Virus record (IMG/VR): IMGVR_UViG_3300032286_002092
Span: 1 to 38,964 of that record
Reading direction: 5' to 3' (one strand)
Length of the DNA stretch: 38,964 nt
Origin: a virus
Positions 6,713 to 21,844 of this stretch are shown one piece after another. Under the pieces are notes generated by a model. It had not been told where the DNA came from and did no database searches. It saw only the letters and a program-made list of their open reading frames with translations. The position numbers were made by a program, and so were the translations under genes. The stretch's first letter is position 1; every line of letters begins with the position of its first letter.

Positions 6713-7707
6713 GCCGCCTGTTCCTTTACGTTCGAAGAATCGTCCGGCGTCCACAGCAGCACCTCGGGCTTGGGCGGCATGCGCCGGCGCCGCGCGCGGT
6801 CGAGGGCTGCCTGCACGAACAGCGGAAAATCGGAATCGACACTGCCGTCGGCCAGAACCGGCACGGCCGCGCACAGCAGATCTTCGGCTTCCCGCTGCAA
6901 ATGCGTGTCGAGCACAATCCCTTGCGCTGGGTCGATCCCGGCGATCCAGGCGCACGGCTGCCCGTCGAGCAGCGGAACGCAGGCCCCGGTTTCAGGCGCC
7001 ACGGCAAAGCGCCGCAGCCAGTCGAGCGGATGCGCCACAAGGGCAAGCCTGGTCGAGTTCTCCCGCCATTCGCGCGCCTCGAAACTGTGCGTGCCAAGCC
7101 CCACCGCATGGCCCGTGCGCAGATACACGCGGCCTGCGCGGCGCTGCGTGGCCTGCGGGGCAAGCTCGAGCGCAAACAGCTCGACGATGTCGGGCCCGTC
7201 GAACGCCGGCATGGTCAGCACGGCCGTGCCCGCCTTCGGCCCGTCGATGTCGTGCGTGGCGCAATGGTCCCACGTGCCGTCGGCAAACGTGTCCGCGCGC
7301 GCAATGCCGCAGCCGGCCACCCGCCAGGCGGGCGTGCCGATCGCGGCATCGAGCCATCGCGCCACGGCGGGCGCAAAAAACGCGGTGCAATGCGCTTCGG
7401 CCGCCAAAGCCTCCAGCCCGCGCGGCGCATAGCCCAATTCGAGCGACCGCAGATCGGTGCTGCGCGAGCGCAACGCTTCGATCGGCGACATCGCGAACAG
7501 CTCGGAACGATAGGCCCGCGCAGTCGCCACCCGACGACGTTTCGACCGGTGCTTGAGCATGCGCAGCCAGCGGCGATAGTCGGCGAGCAGCAACGAAGTC
7601 GCCGACGCGCCCGAAAGGCTCTGCCCATGCGGCGGCGCATCGCCCCAAAAATGAATATCGCCAAAATCCATGCGCGGCACGCCGCGCGCCAGAACGCGCA
7701 CGGTCAC
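6709..7707 (-). CDS. Phage protein of unknown function, possibly a primase-type replication protein
   Basis: This 332-residue protein begins with GTG at 7707, overlapping the methyltransferase stop (GTGA). It has mixed alpha/beta composition with blocks GTAVLTMPAFDGPDIVELFALEL, RVYLRTGHAVGLG and LALVAHPLDWLRRFAV. The pattern of acidic residues in beta-strand contexts and the position directly before the helicase recall toprim/primase-like proteins of alphaproteobacterial phages. I cannot place a catalytic motif, so this is only a suggestion. It is coupled by ATGA to the 6440-6712 gene. Confidence 0.75.
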   Translation of the reverse strand: MTVRVLARGVPRMDFGDIHFWGDAPPHGQSLSGASATSLLLADYRRWLRMLKHRSKRRRVATARAYRSELFAMSPIEALRSRSTDLRSLELGYAPRGLEALAAEAHCTAFFAPAVARWLDAAIGTPAWRVAGCGIARADTFADGTWDHCATHDIDGPKAGTAVLTMPAFDGPDIVELFALELAPQATQRRAGRVYLRTGHAVGLGTHSFEAREWRENSTRLALVAHPLDWLRRFAVAPETGACVPLLDGQPCAWIAGIDPAQGIVLDTHLQREAEDLLCAAVPVLADGSVDSDFPLFVQAALDRARRRRMPPKPEVLLWTPDDSSNVKEQAA

Positions 7708-8645
7708 GGAAACACCCGGCCGACCGGTGCGTCATCTCGCGGATAAAGCAAGCGCCCGTCGGGCCCGCGTTTCAGAAAGCGTGGGATCTCGAGCAGATCG
7801 TCTTCGCTTGAAGAATTGCTGCAGCTGACCGGGCTCGCTGCAGCACTTTCCCGCGATCGATTCGCTGCGACGCAATCGTCCGGGCGGGAAGCGGCCTCGC
7901 AAGCGAGGGCGCGCGTTTCGGGCAATTCTTCGTCGTCGAAAGTGCCGGCGCTATCCATATCTTCGCCACCGGCCCCAGGGTAGCGGGGCCCGCCGACTGG
8001 CGTGCATCTATGGCTTGGGTCGAACTTGGTCGTCTCGTTGCCCCAGGCATCGAAGCCGGGGCGTGTGGTGCGTGCGAACAGCTCGGCGCGCGGCCCTTTG
8101 GCCAAGCGGCAGATGCTGTCGGCGATCTCGTCGGGCTTCTGGCTATGCGCGCGCAACGGGGCGTGCACCACTTGCGCTTCGCCCTTGGACAAGCGCTCGT
8201 AGCCCTTGCCGCGCGTGGCGATCCAGCATTGCTCGCTGCCCGAGCGTGTGTGGTAGCCAAGCCCCTTGCGCGCCAGCCCTTGCGCAAAGGCCTCGTCCCA
8301 GAACAGCATTTCGCCGGGCGGCGTTTTGCACTTGATCCAGATATAGCCGACAGTCTTGTACTCGAAGCCCCAGGCGCGAATGAGATCGAGCGCTTGCGGA
8401 AACAGCGGCTGCACCACCCACAAAAAAAGTGCTGCGTTGGGGGCGGCAAGGTCGGAAATCGGCAGACTCTTGAGCCAATCGAGCCCTTGCGTGGCATAGT
8501 GCTGCGAAGCCCCCTTGCCCTGGCCGCGATGCGACCAAGTCTCGAACGCCCACGGCGGATCGGCATAGACCACGCGATAGCGCCCGGCCTGCCGCAGATC
8601 GGAAAGTGCCGGCAGAGATACATCCGATGGCGGGCTGTGTGTCAT
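7704..8645 (-). CDS. MT-A70-family DNA adenine N6-methyltransferase with an unusual C-terminal tail
   Basis: This is a 313-residue SAM-dependent adenine methyltransferase. The catalytic DPPW (residues 29-32) lies in YRVVYADPPWAFETW. Family blocks follow in MT-A70 order: AALFLWVVQPLFPQAL, WGFEYKTVGYIWIK, GLGYHTRSGSEQCWIATRGK and the closing RTTRPGFDAWGNE. About 95 residues after the domain form a Ser/Glu/Asp-rich tail ending in LLEIPRFLKRGPDGRLLY, a phage-style C-terminal motif of unknown role. The ATG at 8645 overlaps the stop of the GcrA-like gene (ATGA), so methyl writer and candidate methyl reader are co-translated. The target sequence cannot be inferred from the sequence. Confidence 0.92.
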   Translation of the reverse strand: MTHSPPSDVSLPALSDLRQAGRYRVVYADPPWAFETWSHRGQGKGASQHYATQGLDWLKSLPISDLAAPNAALFLWVVQPLFPQALDLIRAWGFEYKTVGYIWIKCKTPPGEMLFWDEAFAQGLARKGLGYHTRSGSEQCWIATRGKGYERLSKGEAQVVHAPLRAHSQKPDEIADSICRLAKGPRAELFARTTRPGFDAWGNETTKFDPSHRCTPVGGPRYPGAGGEDMDSAGTFDDEELPETRALACEAASRPDDCVAANRSRESAAASPVSCSNSSSEDDLLEIPRFLKRGPDGRLLYPRDDAPVGRVFP

Positions 8646-9259
8646 GCCGCCGCACCCGCTGCGCCGACCGGTGCCGCGCGCCGCACAAAACACCGCGCAT
8701 GATGCCCCGCGCAATAGGGCGAAGGCCCGCCATCCACGCGCCGCGTGGTCGGCTGGCCGCAGGTGTAGTACGCACGGCCGAGGCGGCCGGGTTGGCGGGC
8801 GGCGGCCGCATCGGCCGAAATAGAATCGCCCCACAGCGGAAACGCACACTGGGTCGATTTCGCTTCCCCGAAAAGAACGCCCTTCGAAAAAGCCCCGGCA
8901 CCGCCGAGCGGGGGACTGCCCGGCGGCGTCGGGGAGTTCAGGGAGGTACGCCCACGATGCGGCGCTGCGTCCGGTGCGCGCGGCATCGCCTTCGCCGGCG
9001 CAGGGCGCAGCGGCGAAGCTTGTTGCTGCGGCACAGCCGCAGCTTGATCGATTCTCTTGCGCAGCCGCCCGCCGCGTTTGGGCAAGCCCTGGCGGCCGAC
9101 ACGACCCAGCACCGCACTGCGCGATCGACCGATGCGCGCGGCGATCGTGCCGCTGGTCAGCCCCTCGGCCCACAGCTTGCGCAGCAGCGCATCGTCGGCT
9201 GGCGTCCATTCGACCCAGCTTTTCGACGCGCCCATAGATCCCGAAGCCTTGGCGCTCAT
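8642..9259 (-). CDS. gcrA-like: GcrA-like cell-cycle transcription regulator
   Basis: This 205-residue protein has an N-terminal GcrA-type helix-turn-helix (residues about 16-60: EWTPADDALLRKLWAEGL, then IAARIGRSRSAVLGRVGRQGL). A Pro/Ala-rich linker follows, then the GcrA C-terminal region with CAFPLWGD, a second Cys-x-x-Pro and YCAGHHARCF. In Caulobacter, GcrA binds sigma-70 holoenzyme and activates promoters carrying N6-methyladenine placed by CcrM. The phage copy has a longer linker and an insertion between the C-terminal cysteines. It overlaps an adenine methyltransferase gene downstream and an acetyltransferase-like gene upstream by four bases each. It would be expressed early from PR. 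Confidence 0.9.
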   Translation of the reverse strand: MSAKASGSMGASKSWVEWTPADDALLRKLWAEGLTSGTIAARIGRSRSAVLGRVGRQGLPKRGGRLRKRIDQAAAVPQQQASPLRPAPAKAMPRAPDAAPHRGRTSLNSPTPPGSPPLGGAGAFSKGVLFGEAKSTQCAFPLWGDSISADAAAARQPGRLGRAYYTCGQPTTRRVDGGPSPYCAGHHARCFVRRAAPVGAAGAAA

Positions 9260-10919: not shown

Positions 10920-11200
10920 TATTGGGCCTCCGGTCGGACGGAGTCGGCCGGGTCGACCGCGATAGGTTTGCGGCCATGAAAAAACGACGCAAAAAAATCG
11001 TTCCGGGCCCGTTGATACTGCTTTGCGGATGCCACAAACCCGGCGGCAATTCGGTCAGCCACGCGCTCGAAGACGACCGCGATCTTCGCCTCGACGACCC
11101 AGCATTCGAGATTGCGTGCCGTCGGGCGATAGCGGTCGCGCGCTTTGGCCAGCTTGTGAAGCTTGTGGCCCGGCAGCGGATGCAGCGGAGGAACCTTCAT
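10919..11200 (-). CDS. Small basic early protein of unknown function
   Basis: This 93-residue basic protein begins MKVPPLHPLPGHKLHKLAKARDR. A helical middle (AKIAVVFERVADRIAAGFVASAKQYQRARNDFFAS) follows. No family is recognised. Its ATG overlaps the Cro-like stop (ATGA) and its own stop overlaps the next start, so it is the second gene of the PR transcript. Confidence 0.72.
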   Translation of the reverse strand: MKVPPLHPLPGHKLHKLAKARDRYRPTARNLECWVVEAKIAVVFERVADRIAAGFVASAKQYQRARNDFFASFFHGRKPIAVDPADSVRPEAQ

Positions 11201-11451
11201 TGACCGGCCTCCGCAACCTGCGAGACCGGCGGCGGAAAAATATCCGGGCGCAGCTCGTGCGCGGCGAGGCCGGTCATCGATCCGACTTGGCCGACGCGAC
11301 CTGCGGGGATGCAGGACCACTGGTAAATGGCCTGGCGTTTCACACCGAGACGCTCGGCCAAACGCGGCACGCCGCCCACGATTTCAATGGCGCGATACTT
11401 GGCAGCGACAAGGCGATCTTGAATGTCGGGCGGGGTGAGAGTGCTTTCCAT
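11197..11451 (-). CDS. cro-like: Cro/YdaS-like helix-turn-helix repressor
   Basis: This 84-residue protein has one helix-turn-helix (AIEIVGGVPRLAERLGVKRQAIYQW, residues about 21-45), followed by the WSCIPAGRV-x-x-V type of C-terminus seen in YdaS/Cro-like phage repressors. It is divergent from the S24 repressor across an 82-base operator region. The chosen ATG (11451) lies exactly seven bases past the predicted -10 hexamer, so the mRNA may be leaderless. It is the first gene of the leftward lytic operon. Confidence 0.85.
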   Translation of the reverse strand: MESTLTPPDIQDRLVAAKYRAIEIVGGVPRLAERLGVKRQAIYQWSCIPAGRVGQVGSMTGLAAHELRPDIFPPPVSQVAEAGQ

Positions 11452-11458
11452 GACTATA

Positions 11459-11487
11459 AAGGTAAGCATTGCTTCCCTCGTTGTCAA
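11459..11487 (-). promoter_or_regulatory. PR-type early promoter for the leftward operon
   Basis: Minus strand: -35 TTGACA (11487-11482), 17-base spacer, -10 TACCTT (11464-11459). The ATG of the Cro-like gene starts seven bases after the -10, where a transcript would begin. The spacer contains an operator palindrome, so bound repressor would block RNA polymerase. It is nearly identical to the rightward promoter at 13047-13075. Confidence 0.8.
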
Positions 11488-11520
11488 GCACTGCTTGGTT
11501 TACGCAGAAAAGCATTGCTT
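11464..11520. promoter_or_regulatory. Three-site repressor operator cluster
   Basis: Three 11-bp palindromes of the form AAGCANNGCTT lie at 11464-11474 (AAGCATTGCTT), 11486-11496 (AAGCACTGCTT) and 11510-11520 (AAGCATTGCTT). They are spaced 22 and 24 bases apart, about two helical turns. They sit between the divergent Cro-like and CI-like genes, as OR1-OR3 do in lambdoid phages. The first two flank the -35/spacer of PR, and the third lies near the CI-like start. Confidence 0.9.
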
Positions 11521-11533
11521 TCACCGTAGCGGG

Positions 11534-12172
11534 ATGATGAAGAGCGATTCGCAAAGTACGCTGTCGAGACGCATTCGCGAGGCCCGCGAGGCGGCTGACT
11601 TGACACAGGCCGAACTTGCCAAAAGCTTCGGCATCGAACCCAAGGCGGTCTCGCAATGGGAGCGCGACCCAGCCCACGCCAAACGCAAGCCTGCACGGCC
11701 CGATATCGACAAGATACCGGCCCTCGCCGAGCGTTTGGGCGTCACGGTCGATTGGCTGCTGACCGGCAAAACAACGCCGCCCGCTTTGCCGCAAATCCCC
11801 GTGGTCGGCTATGTCGGCGCGGGTGCAGAGATATTTCTCGTTGACGACCTCGCCAAAGGGCAACGCATCGACGAAGCGCCGCCGTTTCCCGGGCAAGACG
11901 GCCCGGCCGTGGCCGTGCGCGTGCGCGGCGACTCTATGCTGCCCGAGATCGAAGACGGCTACACACTCTACTATTCGCGCAATCGCGACGGCGTGCCGTC
12001 GGCTTGCCTTGGCCGCCTGTGTGTCGTGCAAGTCCATGACGGCCCGGTGCTGGTCAAAAAGCTCGAAAAAGGATTGCGCACCGGGTTGTTTAGGCTGCAC
12101 AGCAGCAACGCGAGCCCGCGCGAAAATGTACGGCTTGATTGGGCCGCGCGCGTGTTGGCCATAATCCCTTAG
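11534..12172 (+). CDS. cI-like: CI-like repressor: HTH plus S24 autopeptidase domain
   Basis: This 212-residue lysogeny repressor has an N-terminal helix-turn-helix (residues about 10-65: REAREAADLTQAELAKSFGIEPKAVSQWER). A C-terminal LexA/CI peptidase domain follows, with a likely Ala-Gly cleavage site in VGYVGAGAE, catalytic Ser in RGDSMLPEIEDG and catalytic Lys in GPVLVKKL. Intact residues imply RecA-stimulated self-cleavage and SOS induction. The start is one of two consecutive ATGs (11534 or 11537); the ribosome binding site is weak. The stop overlaps the stop of the convergent HIRAN gene by four bases. Confidence 0.93.
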   Translation: MMKSDSQSTLSRRIREAREAADLTQAELAKSFGIEPKAVSQWERDPAHAKRKPARPDIDKIPALAERLGVTVDWLLTGKTTPPALPQIPVVGYVGAGAEIFLVDDLAKGQRIDEAPPFPGQDGPAVAVRVRGDSMLPEIEDGYTLYYSRNRDGVPSACLGRLCVVQVHDGPVLVKKLEKGLRTGLFRLHSSNASPRENVRLDWAARVLAIIP

Positions 12173-12975
12173 AGCTTCTGCGCGCGTATCCAGTCGAGAT
12201 GGGCGGCGACGGGTCCTAAGTCTGTCTGCGACCAACCCGCCAGCAATTCGAGCGAGCGCAACGCGGAACGCGTGCGCGATCCTGGAATGCCGTCGGCCGG
12301 GCCGATCGCGAAGCCCGCCCGGATCAAACCTTGCTGCAGCTCAACGATCTCTTCGCGGTTCAACGGCCGCCTGCCTGACGGCGTATCGGGACCGGCTATG
12401 CTCGATATCGTCGTAGCAGGCGGCTGCTGCGGGGTCGCGGGCGCTGCTGCACGCGGCATAGCGGATTGAGGCGAAGTGTTTTGCGCAGCGCGCTGCACGA
12501 ACCAACCGAATGCAAACACGATCGCGAAAAGCATCACAAAAGCCGCAACGATCGAACGGTTTGCGGAGGCCGGGCGACTCGAACCGAGCGCCGCAGGTTT
12601 CGATGCGGGCTCAGCCGCATTCGACAGCGGCGCTGCGGATTGCGCGGGATCGTCTTCGAAGATTTGAATTTCGAGAACCAACCCGTGCGAAGGTTTATCG
12701 ACCGTTCCGCCTGTCAGTTGGTCGATCTTGGCTTCGACCAAACCCGTTTCGACATCGTCGAAGAGCCCGTGCCCGCTAGGCAGATAGCCGACTTGACCAA
12801 GGCCGACGATCCACACCGCAACAGCTTCCGTGTCGTGCGGATTGTCTGACTCGGGCTCGAGATCGACATCCATCCACGGTTTCGCTTTCGCAAGAAGCTT
12901 TTGGCGGCTGGTGCCGTCGTCGTTGCGGAAACTCTCACCCGCCACTGCAATGCGATATGTCCTGGCAAGCCGCAT
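12169..12975 (-). CDS. HIRAN domain - transmembrane - peptidoglycan-binding protein
   Basis: This 268-residue protein has an unusual architecture. Residues about 7-80 form a HIRAN domain (IAVAGESFRNDDG-SRQKLL, then LEPESDNPHDTEAVAVW and VGYLPSGHG). After a linker, one hydrophobic helix (SIVAAFVMLFAIVFAFGWFV, 141-160) crosses the membrane. A Pro/Ala-rich spacer leads to a PG_binding_1-like helical repeat (REEIVELQQGLIRAGFAIGPADGIPGSRTRSALRSLE, about 207-243). Known HIRAN domains bind DNA, particularly 3' ends. The predicted topology puts it in the cytoplasm and the cell-wall module in the periplasm. The ATG at 12975 is preferred over an upstream TTG because GAGGTTGGAG precedes it. Its place in the immunity region, convergent with CI, suggests a lysogen-expressed exclusion or conversion protein. 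Confidence 0.85.
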   Translation of the reverse strand: MRLARTYRIAVAGESFRNDDGTSRQKLLAKAKPWMDVDLEPESDNPHDTEAVAVWIVGLGQVGYLPSGHGLFDDVETGLVEAKIDQLTGGTVDKPSHGLVLEIQIFEDDPAQSAAPLSNAAEPASKPAALGSSRPASANRSIVAAFVMLFAIVFAFGWFVQRAAQNTSPQSAMPRAAAPATPQQPPATTISSIAGPDTPSGRRPLNREEIVELQQGLIRAGFAIGPADGIPGSRTRSALRSLELLAGWSQTDLGPVAAHLDWIRAQKL

Positions 12976-13037: not shown

Positions 13038-13070
13038 AAGCAACGCTTGACAAAGGGGGAAGCAATGCTT
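13038..13070. promoter_or_regulatory. Two-site repressor operator cluster (right arm)
   Basis: AAGCAACGCTT (13038-13048) and AAGCAATGCTT (13060-13070) share the AAGCANNGCTT form and the 22-base spacing of the cluster at 11464-11520. They bracket the -35 and spacer of the rightward early promoter, so the same repressor should shut off both arms. Confidence 0.9.
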
Positions 13071-13106: not shown

Positions 13107-13355
13107 ATGCGCATTTCCCCACACAGCCGCCCCCCGCAAACAATGGCCGCGCGCCGCGAAAAAATGGCGGACACGATCTGCCGTATCGCGGCCGAACGCG
13201 GCGTTTGCACCGAAGCCGATCTTCAGCGCGAAGGTTTCACGCGCGCCGAAATCGACCTGCTCGGCGACGACGCGCGCGAAGAAGCCGGTCGGCGCCAAAC
13301 CCATGCGCGCGAACTGCAGCCGCGCCAAGCGCGAGCCAAAGCGGAGGCTCGCTAA
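13107..13355 (+). CDS. Small early protein, first gene of the rightward operon
   Basis: This 82-residue basic protein has a helical segment KMADTICRIAAERGVCTEADLQREGFTRAEID (about 18-50) that looks like a small winged-helix or HTH fold, followed by an Arg/Ala-rich tail. No family is assigned. The start is chosen for the GAGGTG ribosome binding site six bases upstream. The next gene begins one base after its stop codon. Confidence 0.75.
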   Translation: MRISPHSRPPQTMAARREKMADTICRIAAERGVCTEADLQREGFTRAEIDLLGDDAREEAGRRQTHARELQPRQARAKAEAR

Positions 13356-20746: not shown

Positions 20747-21844
20747 ATGAAGTTGCAGCCCCTGATCGTCCTGGTCTTTGCTTCTGCCGCCGTCCTCGCA
20801 CTCGGTGCTTGCGCGCCGACCACCGAGCGGCCGACGGTCGATTCGGCTGCATCCAACGCCGAGGCCAAGCTGCAACGCGGCCTCGCTTTCGAGAATCTCG
20901 AGCGCCAACGCCAACGGCTCAACAACGTCGCATTCCGCGTGCTCACCGCAGGCGCCGAACTTTGCGGCACAAAATTGCGCCATTCGGGCGGCTTCTCGCT
21001 GCGCACGCTCGACATGTACACTGGCGCCATGCGCGCCGCCGCCGCCGACAAGGGGATCGACGCCAATATCAGCGTGGGCAGCGTCGCGCTCGCCGGCCCC
21101 GCCGCGCAAGCGGGCCTCCAAGTCGGCGACAATATCGTGCGGATCGGCGAGAAGCCGATCCCGACCGGGCGTGACGGCATGGCCGCCGCCGACAAAGCGA
21201 TCGCCGCCAAGGACCCTGCGCTTTCGCTCGCAATCGTGCGCGGTGGCGAGAAAATCGACATCACCCTGCAGCGCGTTCCGACCTGCGATTATCCCGTCGT
21301 CTATCAGACGAATGCGCAGCTGAACGCCTATGCCGACGGCTCCAAAATCGTGATGTTCTCGGGCATGGTTCGCTTCGCCGCGACCGACGAGGAATTGGCG
21401 CTGATCGTGGCGCACGAGCTTGCCCACAATATGCGCGACCATATCGACGCCAAAAAGGGCAACGCGGTTTTGGGCGCTATTCTCGACGGCTTGTTCCAAG
21501 GCCTCACCGGTGTGAGCACCGGCGGCGCGTTTTCGAATGCGGCCGCCAATGCGAACTCGCCCGATTTTGAAGCCGAGGCGGATTATGTGGGGCTCTATGT
21601 GATGGCGCGCGCGGGCTACGCGATCGCCGACGCGCCCACTTTTTGGCGCCGCATGGCGGTCGAGAACCCTGGCGGCATCAGCCACACGAGCTCGCATCCG
21701 GCCACGAATGACCGATTCGTAGCGTTGCAGTCCGCGATAGCCGAGATCGAGGGCAAGCGCGCGGCCGGGCTGCCGCTGGTGCCAAACGAACAAAAACGGC
21801 AGTCGGCACCGCCGCCGTCACCGAGCGCAGATTCTTCAAAATAG
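20747..21844 (+). CDS. M48-family zinc metalloprotease lipoprotein with a PDZ domain
   Basis: This is a 365-residue protein. A lipoprotein signal peptide ends at the lipobox LGAC (Cys22), so the mature protein is anchored in the cell envelope. Residues about 107-176 form a PDZ-like domain (AGPAAQAGLQVGDNIVRIGEKPI). The protease domain has the zinc motif HELAH (223-227), the third ligand region FEAEADYVGLYVMARAG (275-290) and the M48 end motif SSHPATNDRFVAL, so it looks active. Such proteases are common chromosomal envelope-quality enzymes in alphaproteobacteria. In a phage this is a cargo gene, probably expressed from the prophage. Confidence 0.92.
   Translation: MKLQPLIVLVFASAAVLALGACAPTTERPTVDSAASNAEAKLQRGLAFENLERQRQRLNNVAFRVLTAGAELCGTKLRHSGGFSLRTLDMYTGAMRAAAADKGIDANISVGSVALAGPAAQAGLQVGDNIVRIGEKPIPTGRDGMAAADKAIAAKDPALSLAIVRGGEKIDITLQRVPTCDYPVVYQTNAQLNAYADGSKIVMFSGMVRFAATDEELALIVAHELAHNMRDHIDAKKGNAVLGAILDGLFQGLTGVSTGGAFSNAAANANSPDFEAEADYVGLYVMARAGYAIADAPTFWRRMAVENPGGISHTSSHPATNDRFVALQSAIAEIEGKRAAGLPLVPNEQKRQSAPPPSPSADSSK

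Follow-up and report, generated by a model that had tools for sequence, protein, structure and literature searches.

A HIRAN-domain protein with a predicted membrane segment in a phage immunity region: a candidate exclusion protein of the lysogen

Introduction

The position next to the repressor gene is the classic place for phage genes that block rival phages. We analysed a stretch of 38,964 nt of the IMG/VR virus record IMGVR_UViG_3300032286_002092 (hereafter, the window), in which this position is taken by a gene for a protein with a HIRAN domain, a predicted transmembrane (TM) segment and a putative wall-binding domain. What could such a protein do for a prophage? The original prediction, made from the sequence by eye, described a sensor at the membrane of the lysogen that contacts incoming DNA ends and passes this information to the cell wall, leading to superinfection exclusion or to an abortive response. 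Here we characterize the locus and its relatives and weigh this function against other explanations.

The immunity region

The cI gene (positions 11534–12172, plus strand) encodes a CI-type repressor with HTH_3 and Peptidase_S24 domains (Pfam, 42.5 and 42.2 bits), which matches a transcriptional repressor of PHROG with E-value 2.4e-34. Divergent from cI, a YdaS/Cro-like gene (11197–11469, minus strand) heads the leftward operon; its product has matches to YdaS_toxin (PF15943, 50.8 bits) and to a PHROG repressor, with P22_Cro slightly under the Pfam cut-off. On its other side cI is convergent, with a 4-bp overlap, with the HIRAN gene (12169–12975, minus strand). Translation from the ATG at 12975 to the stop at 12169 gives a product of 268 aa, in agreement with the gene coordinates and strand predicted originally.

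A pattern search identified three operator-like palindromes AAGCAnTGCTT in the gap between the cro-like gene and cI (11464–11520, with sites at 11464, 11486 and 11510) and two more in the gap that separates the HIRAN gene from the rightward operon (13038–13070, with sites at 13038, with one mismatch, and 13060). With at most one mismatch allowed, the window contains five sites versus 0.89 expected; none of 100 shuffles reached five, and none of 200 shuffles gave an equally good match between the two operator regions. These five are the only operator-like sites of the window, and they bracket both cI and the HIRAN gene. The latter is thus part of the immunity interval and has cI on one side and the rightward operators on the other, as anticipated. 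In phage lambda the equivalent immunity interval holds rexA and rexB. A rightward TTGACA hexamer (13047–13052) sits between and within the sites 13038 and 13060, placed as would be expected of a repressed early promoter; the first gene of the rightward operon (13108–13355, plus strand), divergent from the HIRAN gene, is without a family match. There is no second gene between cI and the rightward operators. A scan for the sigma-70 consensus around the HIRAN gene found no promoter, and a DNA similarity search with the immunity region against phage records gave no match.

In the leftward early operon, a gene for a GcrA-like cell-cycle regulator (8642–9235, minus strand; PF07750, 44 bits) adjoins a gene for an MT-A70 adenine methyltransferase (7704–8573, minus strand). 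The pair suggests that the host is an alphaproteobacterium and that the phage makes use of the GcrA/methylation circuit.

Domain composition of the HIRAN protein

The HIRAN match (PF08797) covers residues 20–67 with E-value 3.8e-7 and 30.3 bits, versus the curated cut-off of 24.7. The domain itself appears wider, reaching approximately residues 1–107 (12655–12975, minus strand), a region modelled by AF2 from 16 aligned sequences with pLDDT >90. In a Foldseek search with this model the PDB matches of ranks 1–17 were all HIRAN domains (best E-value 2.5e-5), including the HIRAN domain of human HLTF (4s0n, 6kcs and 4xzg), several entries with DNA, and the Lactobacillus protein lp_0118 (3k2y). The N-terminus of the window protein is thus predicted to have the HIRAN beta-barrel fold. 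The N-P-x-D motif of the HLTF domain (NPYD) is the part that touches the 3′ end of DNA, and the window protein has the same motif at N45, P46, H47 and D48; it may sense DNA ends. HLTF is a helicase, unlike the window protein, which has no catalytic domain.

Downstream of the HIRAN domain we found a single TM helix (residues 142–161; 12493–12552, minus strand). The hydropathy profile gave one TM segment at residues 142–160 with a score of 2.71, and the AF2 model has a long helix at residues 139–166. The positive-inside signal is weak (three K/R in the 20 residues before the TM segment and two after); the probable topology has the HIRAN domain in the cytoplasm and the wall-binding part outside. 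The latter is a PG_binding_1 match over 38 residues (PF01471, residues 207–244; 12244–12357, minus strand; E-value 1.1e-5, 26 bits versus the cut-off of 23), predicted to be periplasmic. The same stretch resembles the C-terminal domain of the lytic transglycosylase SltB3 (E-value 8e-4). The model of the C-terminal region 207–267 is helical (helices 207–219, 233–246 and 254–267) and poor, with pLDDT ∼40–68. The HIRAN-like N-terminus, the one TM helix and, by its Pfam score, the C-terminal peptidoglycan-binding domain of the original prediction were all recovered.

HIRAN genes of other phages and their position relative to repressors

To collect relatives, seeds and a HIRAN alignment were obtained by a Pfam search of 385 alphaproteobacterial genomes; IMG/VR phage loci were then gathered by use of alignments, one protein and the DNA pattern E-P-x-N-P-x-D-x-x-A-[VI]-x-V, so that conservation of N-P-x-D in the larger phage set is partly forced by the search. 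In this IMG/VR sample we found at least 132 distinct HIRAN stretches in phage loci. Among the matches listed, the HIRAN domain was followed by a TM segment in 9 proteins (HIRAN-TM) and preceded by one in 24 (TM-HIRAN), with 99 proteins having no TM segment.

All nine HIRAN-TM genes among the matches listed were located within 500 bp of a gene for a CI-like repressor, versus 1.85 expected from random placement inside the same loci, and none of 20,000 simulations reached nine. For TM-HIRAN genes the corresponding counts were 11 of 24 versus 4.7 expected, and for soluble HIRAN genes 31 of 99 versus 12.0; thus, 13 of the 24 and 68 of the 99 in this list were away from repressors. A HIRAN gene on the same strand as cI and 3′ of it was seen, among the matches listed, in 4 cases of HIRAN-TM, 8 of TM-HIRAN and 26 of soluble HIRAN. 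The convergent arrangement of the window occurs as well: for HIRAN-TM it is seen in L159/L247, where the two genes overlap by 4 bp just as they do in the window, in L025, where 7 bp separate them, and in L248 (2 bp); for TM-HIRAN it is seen in L219 and L170, and for soluble HIRAN in L027. Around the convergent pairs of L025, L027, L159, L219 and L248 no shared operators were found; L170 has a suggestive operator pair, as good as which were 4 of 200 shuffles.

Because four of the six seeds of the repressor profile came from loci already seen to adjoin HIRAN, the profile was checked in two ways. By Pfam, the repressors of L025, L159 and L219 have S24 domains above the cut-off, with L027 slightly below. 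The other check used deposited annotations of phages that had no part in building the profile: Streptococcus phage 315.3 has the order cI, HIRAN, integrase; Staphylococcus phages P954 and JS01 have cI followed by HIRAN; pneumococcal phiARI0285-2 has HTH, DUF955, HIRAN and integrase; and in Nostoc phage Nsp-JY10 the HIRAN gene is convergent with an XRE gene, 3 bp apart. By hydropathy, the HIRAN protein of phiARI0285-2 has a TM segment, and those of 315.3, P954, JS01 and Nsp-JY10 have none. HIRAN genes are also present in the lysogeny module of pneumococcal phages related to phiRMV8. The link of HIRAN genes to phage repressors is a general one, for membrane and soluble forms alike, and many unrelated phages have such genes beside the repressor. 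The original prediction had staked itself on a link to phage immunity loci, and this link is present both in the nine of nine HIRAN-TM cases among the matches listed and in the deposited annotations.

The closest layouts among the matches listed were those of L025, L151 and L159/L248. The L025 protein (259 aa) has a HIRAN domain, a Pro-rich linker, a TM segment and ∼100 aa outside with no Pfam match; that of L151 (270 aa) has a similar layout, and the L159/L248 proteins consist of HIRAN and a tail anchor. Of the three-part layout foreseen near repressors, the HIRAN-TM part was indeed found there, but the wall-binding domain was seen in the window protein alone, no second HIRAN protein among the matches listed having one. 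What these proteins have in common is HIRAN with a membrane segment, and the periplasmic part varies or is absent. The wall-binding part belongs to the window protein only and does not define the class, so that the core function is unlikely to depend on a link to the wall.

Searches with the whole protein gave no full-length relative in viral contigs; in genomes they matched the wall-binding part alone, and phages and plasmids gave partial matches. In a set of 43 records, nearly all of phages with related capsids, a HIRAN gene was present in just one further member (G414); its product is of the TM-HIRAN order, and the gene lies two genes behind one that looks like a repressor by eye, with no Pfam match. 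Stand-alone HIRAN genes were found on plasmids of Sphingobium and Sphingomonas, one of them beside a T4SS cluster.

Several features of these loci deserve mention. A family of soluble HIRAN proteins of ∼135 aa with an acidic end, such as FWPDDIPPDD, is encoded directly 3′ of, and in the same orientation as, the gene for a CI-like repressor; phages with this cI-HIRAN operon include L127, L137, L153, L155, L161, L197, L202, L207 and others. Genes for small lipoproteins or secreted proteins adjoin the membrane HIRAN gene in L159 (6273–6587, minus strand) and L116 (3134–3439, plus strand), and their products may be envelope partners of the HIRAN protein. Four related phage contigs (L021–L024) encode a 419-aa protein with two TM helices and HIRAN, the C-terminal part of which looks TerB-like by eye; no repressor was detected near this gene.

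Comparison with known systems

The nearest described protein is ThaL, a transmembrane HIRAN lysogeny protein named in 2025 in the Streptococcus pneumoniae prophage phiRMV8; the paper (PMC12637031) reports no function for it and does not refer to a wall domain. Compared by description, ThaL and the window protein share the HIRAN domain and the TM segment, and both are encoded in the lysogeny module of a prophage under C1 control. In contrast to ThaL, the window gene is convergent with cI, belongs to a phage of alphaproteobacterial type and encodes HIRAN before the TM segment and a wall-binding domain after it. With HIRAN and a TM segment in a product whose gene is in a repressor module between operator clusters, the window protein resembles the ThaL type in domains and gene position. 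The statement that no system of such architecture had been described was therefore nearly right: ThaL had been named (PMC12637031), though without mention of a wall domain. What is new in the window protein is its layout and host group; its kind is already named, and the phage loci above indicate that it is widespread.

RexAB combines a DNA-binding sensor with a membrane effector, and a RexAB-type system is known from P. putida (PMC12894663). The likeness to the window protein is in the DNA-binding function coupled with a membrane protein, in the expected expression by the lysogen and in the position between the repressor and the far operator. The differences are one gene instead of two, a HIRAN rather than a RexA fold, and one TM helix versus the polytopic RexB; no sequence relation of the window protein to RexAB was found. 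Sie2009 and sieB of P22 are examples of lysogeny-module genes for superinfection exclusion. Another, ltp of phage TP-J34, encodes a lipoprotein and is transcribed in the prophage (PMC3952083). Ltp resembles the window protein in being envelope-located and encoded in a prophage lysogeny module, yet it is an outward-facing lipoprotein that has no cytoplasmic DNA-binding domain, and there is no homology.

The HIRAN domains of HipL and HipN (PADLOC PDC-M03) have been put forward as sensors of phage DNA ends that trigger abortive infection (PMC8262856), a role like the one considered here. In the HIRAN stretch of the window protein PADLOC matches were weak (E-value 0.0014); there was no match to the HipA kinase in the window protein or in the tested neighbours, and no HipS-like domain. 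A nuclease or kinase partner was considered for the HIRAN protein and rejected, as none adjoins the gene. A gene of the HipL type, with a HipA-like kinase fused to HIRAN, was observed in the P2-like Escherichia phage 899 (L018, 3678–5237, plus strand) between the replication endonuclease and portal genes. In P2 this position, a known defence hotspot, is occupied by old and tin.

Possible function

We see about an even chance that the window protein is a prophage exclusion or abortive protein, expressed by the lysogen from the place that lambda gives to rexAB. This rating is based on the position in the immunity interval, the broad link to repressors, the location in the envelope and the combination of DNA recognition with a membrane segment. 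The lysogen would express the protein; its cytoplasmic HIRAN domain would recognise DNA ends or stalled forks arising from the injected or replicating DNA of another phage; the membrane segment would either act as RexB does for RexA, relaying the signal to the membrane, or hold the sensor at the point of DNA entry; and the wall-binding tail would fix the protein in the envelope. Since this tail differs or is missing in relatives, the working core would be HIRAN with the membrane anchor. Exclusion, as well as any effect on the membrane, is what we infer from these features. Lysogen expression has to be inferred too, because the gene converges with cI instead of sharing its operon, and the scan of its surroundings revealed no consensus promoter.

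Several facts argue against exclusion. RexB is polytopic, whereas a single TM helix forms no obvious channel, part of the HIRAN genes are away from repressors, and we found in the literature no experiment on any phage HIRAN protein. The DLP4 HIRAN gene was grouped by its authors with replication and repair genes (PMC6469090), and the lysogeny-module proteins SzaL and SpaL tune prophage activation (PMC12637031). In the literature on HIRAN together with superinfection or prophages, no HIRAN exclusion protein of a phage was found reported.

The role of SzaL and SpaL, which alter prophage activation on competence or DprA (PMC12637031), suggests that the window protein could instead adjust the lysogenic switch, with HIRAN sensing damaged or recombining DNA of the host and changing CI stability, induction or the timing of burst. 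The HIRAN gene adjoins cI, the CI encoded there has an S24 domain, and binding of DNA ends is known for characterised HIRAN domains (PMC8262856). We regard this as unlikely: CI, by precedent, already answers RecA via S24, sensing of DNA damage needs neither a membrane anchor nor a periplasmic domain, and SzaL and SpaL are not described as HIRAN proteins. Quite unlikely, in our judgement, is a lytic or early gene, with CI repressing the HIRAN promoter at 13038/13060 and the product acting after infection or induction, perhaps along with antisense transcription into cI. The operators are directly upstream of the HIRAN gene, and its orientation would send transcripts into cI; however, the operator centre closest to the ATG lies ∼68 bp upstream of it, the operators embed the TTGACA of the divergent rightward promoter, and among the matches listed the HIRAN genes linked to a repressor are mostly 3′ of cI in the same orientation and would be transcribed along with it.

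The presence of thaL in a prophage of transformable pneumococcus, reported in a paper on curing by transformation (PMC12637031), raises another option, that a membrane-held HIRAN domain binds the 3′ end of single-stranded DNA that is taken up in transformation or conjugation, shielding the prophage from curing or from competing elements. The plasmid HIRAN genes of Sphingobium and Sphingomonas, including the one beside T4SS genes, would fit. Nevertheless, cI-adjacent HIRAN genes are also found in phages of Staphylococcus, a genus with little natural transformation, and we hold this option to be improbable. It is hardly credible that the wall-binding part serves to change the host surface, with HIRAN being incidental: the PG_binding_1 match and the envelope location would agree with such a conversion, but relatives lack the wall domain and HIRAN is the part that is conserved.

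If exclusion is the function, it could extend further. Tentatively, and with somewhat less than even confidence, we suggest that repressor-adjacent HIRAN proteins, membrane and soluble, make up a widespread and as yet undescribed exclusion class in which one protein senses foreign DNA ends; sensing would take place at the inner face of the membrane and action would go through the membrane, the wall-anchored form of the window being one variant. A domain known from fork-repair enzymes would then be a common phage-versus-phage sensor, encoded beside the repressor in phages whose hosts are Alphaproteobacteria, Streptococcus, Staphylococcus or cyanobacteria. The many annotations as 'HIRAN domain-containing protein' would have an explanation, and, with DNA recognition and a membrane segment in one protein, the long-standing question of how Rex-like exclusion notices phage DNA and transmits this to the membrane could be put to a simple test.

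Elsewhere in the window, a gene adjoining the integrase (20747–21844, plus strand) encodes a predicted lipoprotein with PDZ and M48 metallopeptidase domains. This is an unusual phage gene, which we read as a moron or as host DNA at the prophage edge.
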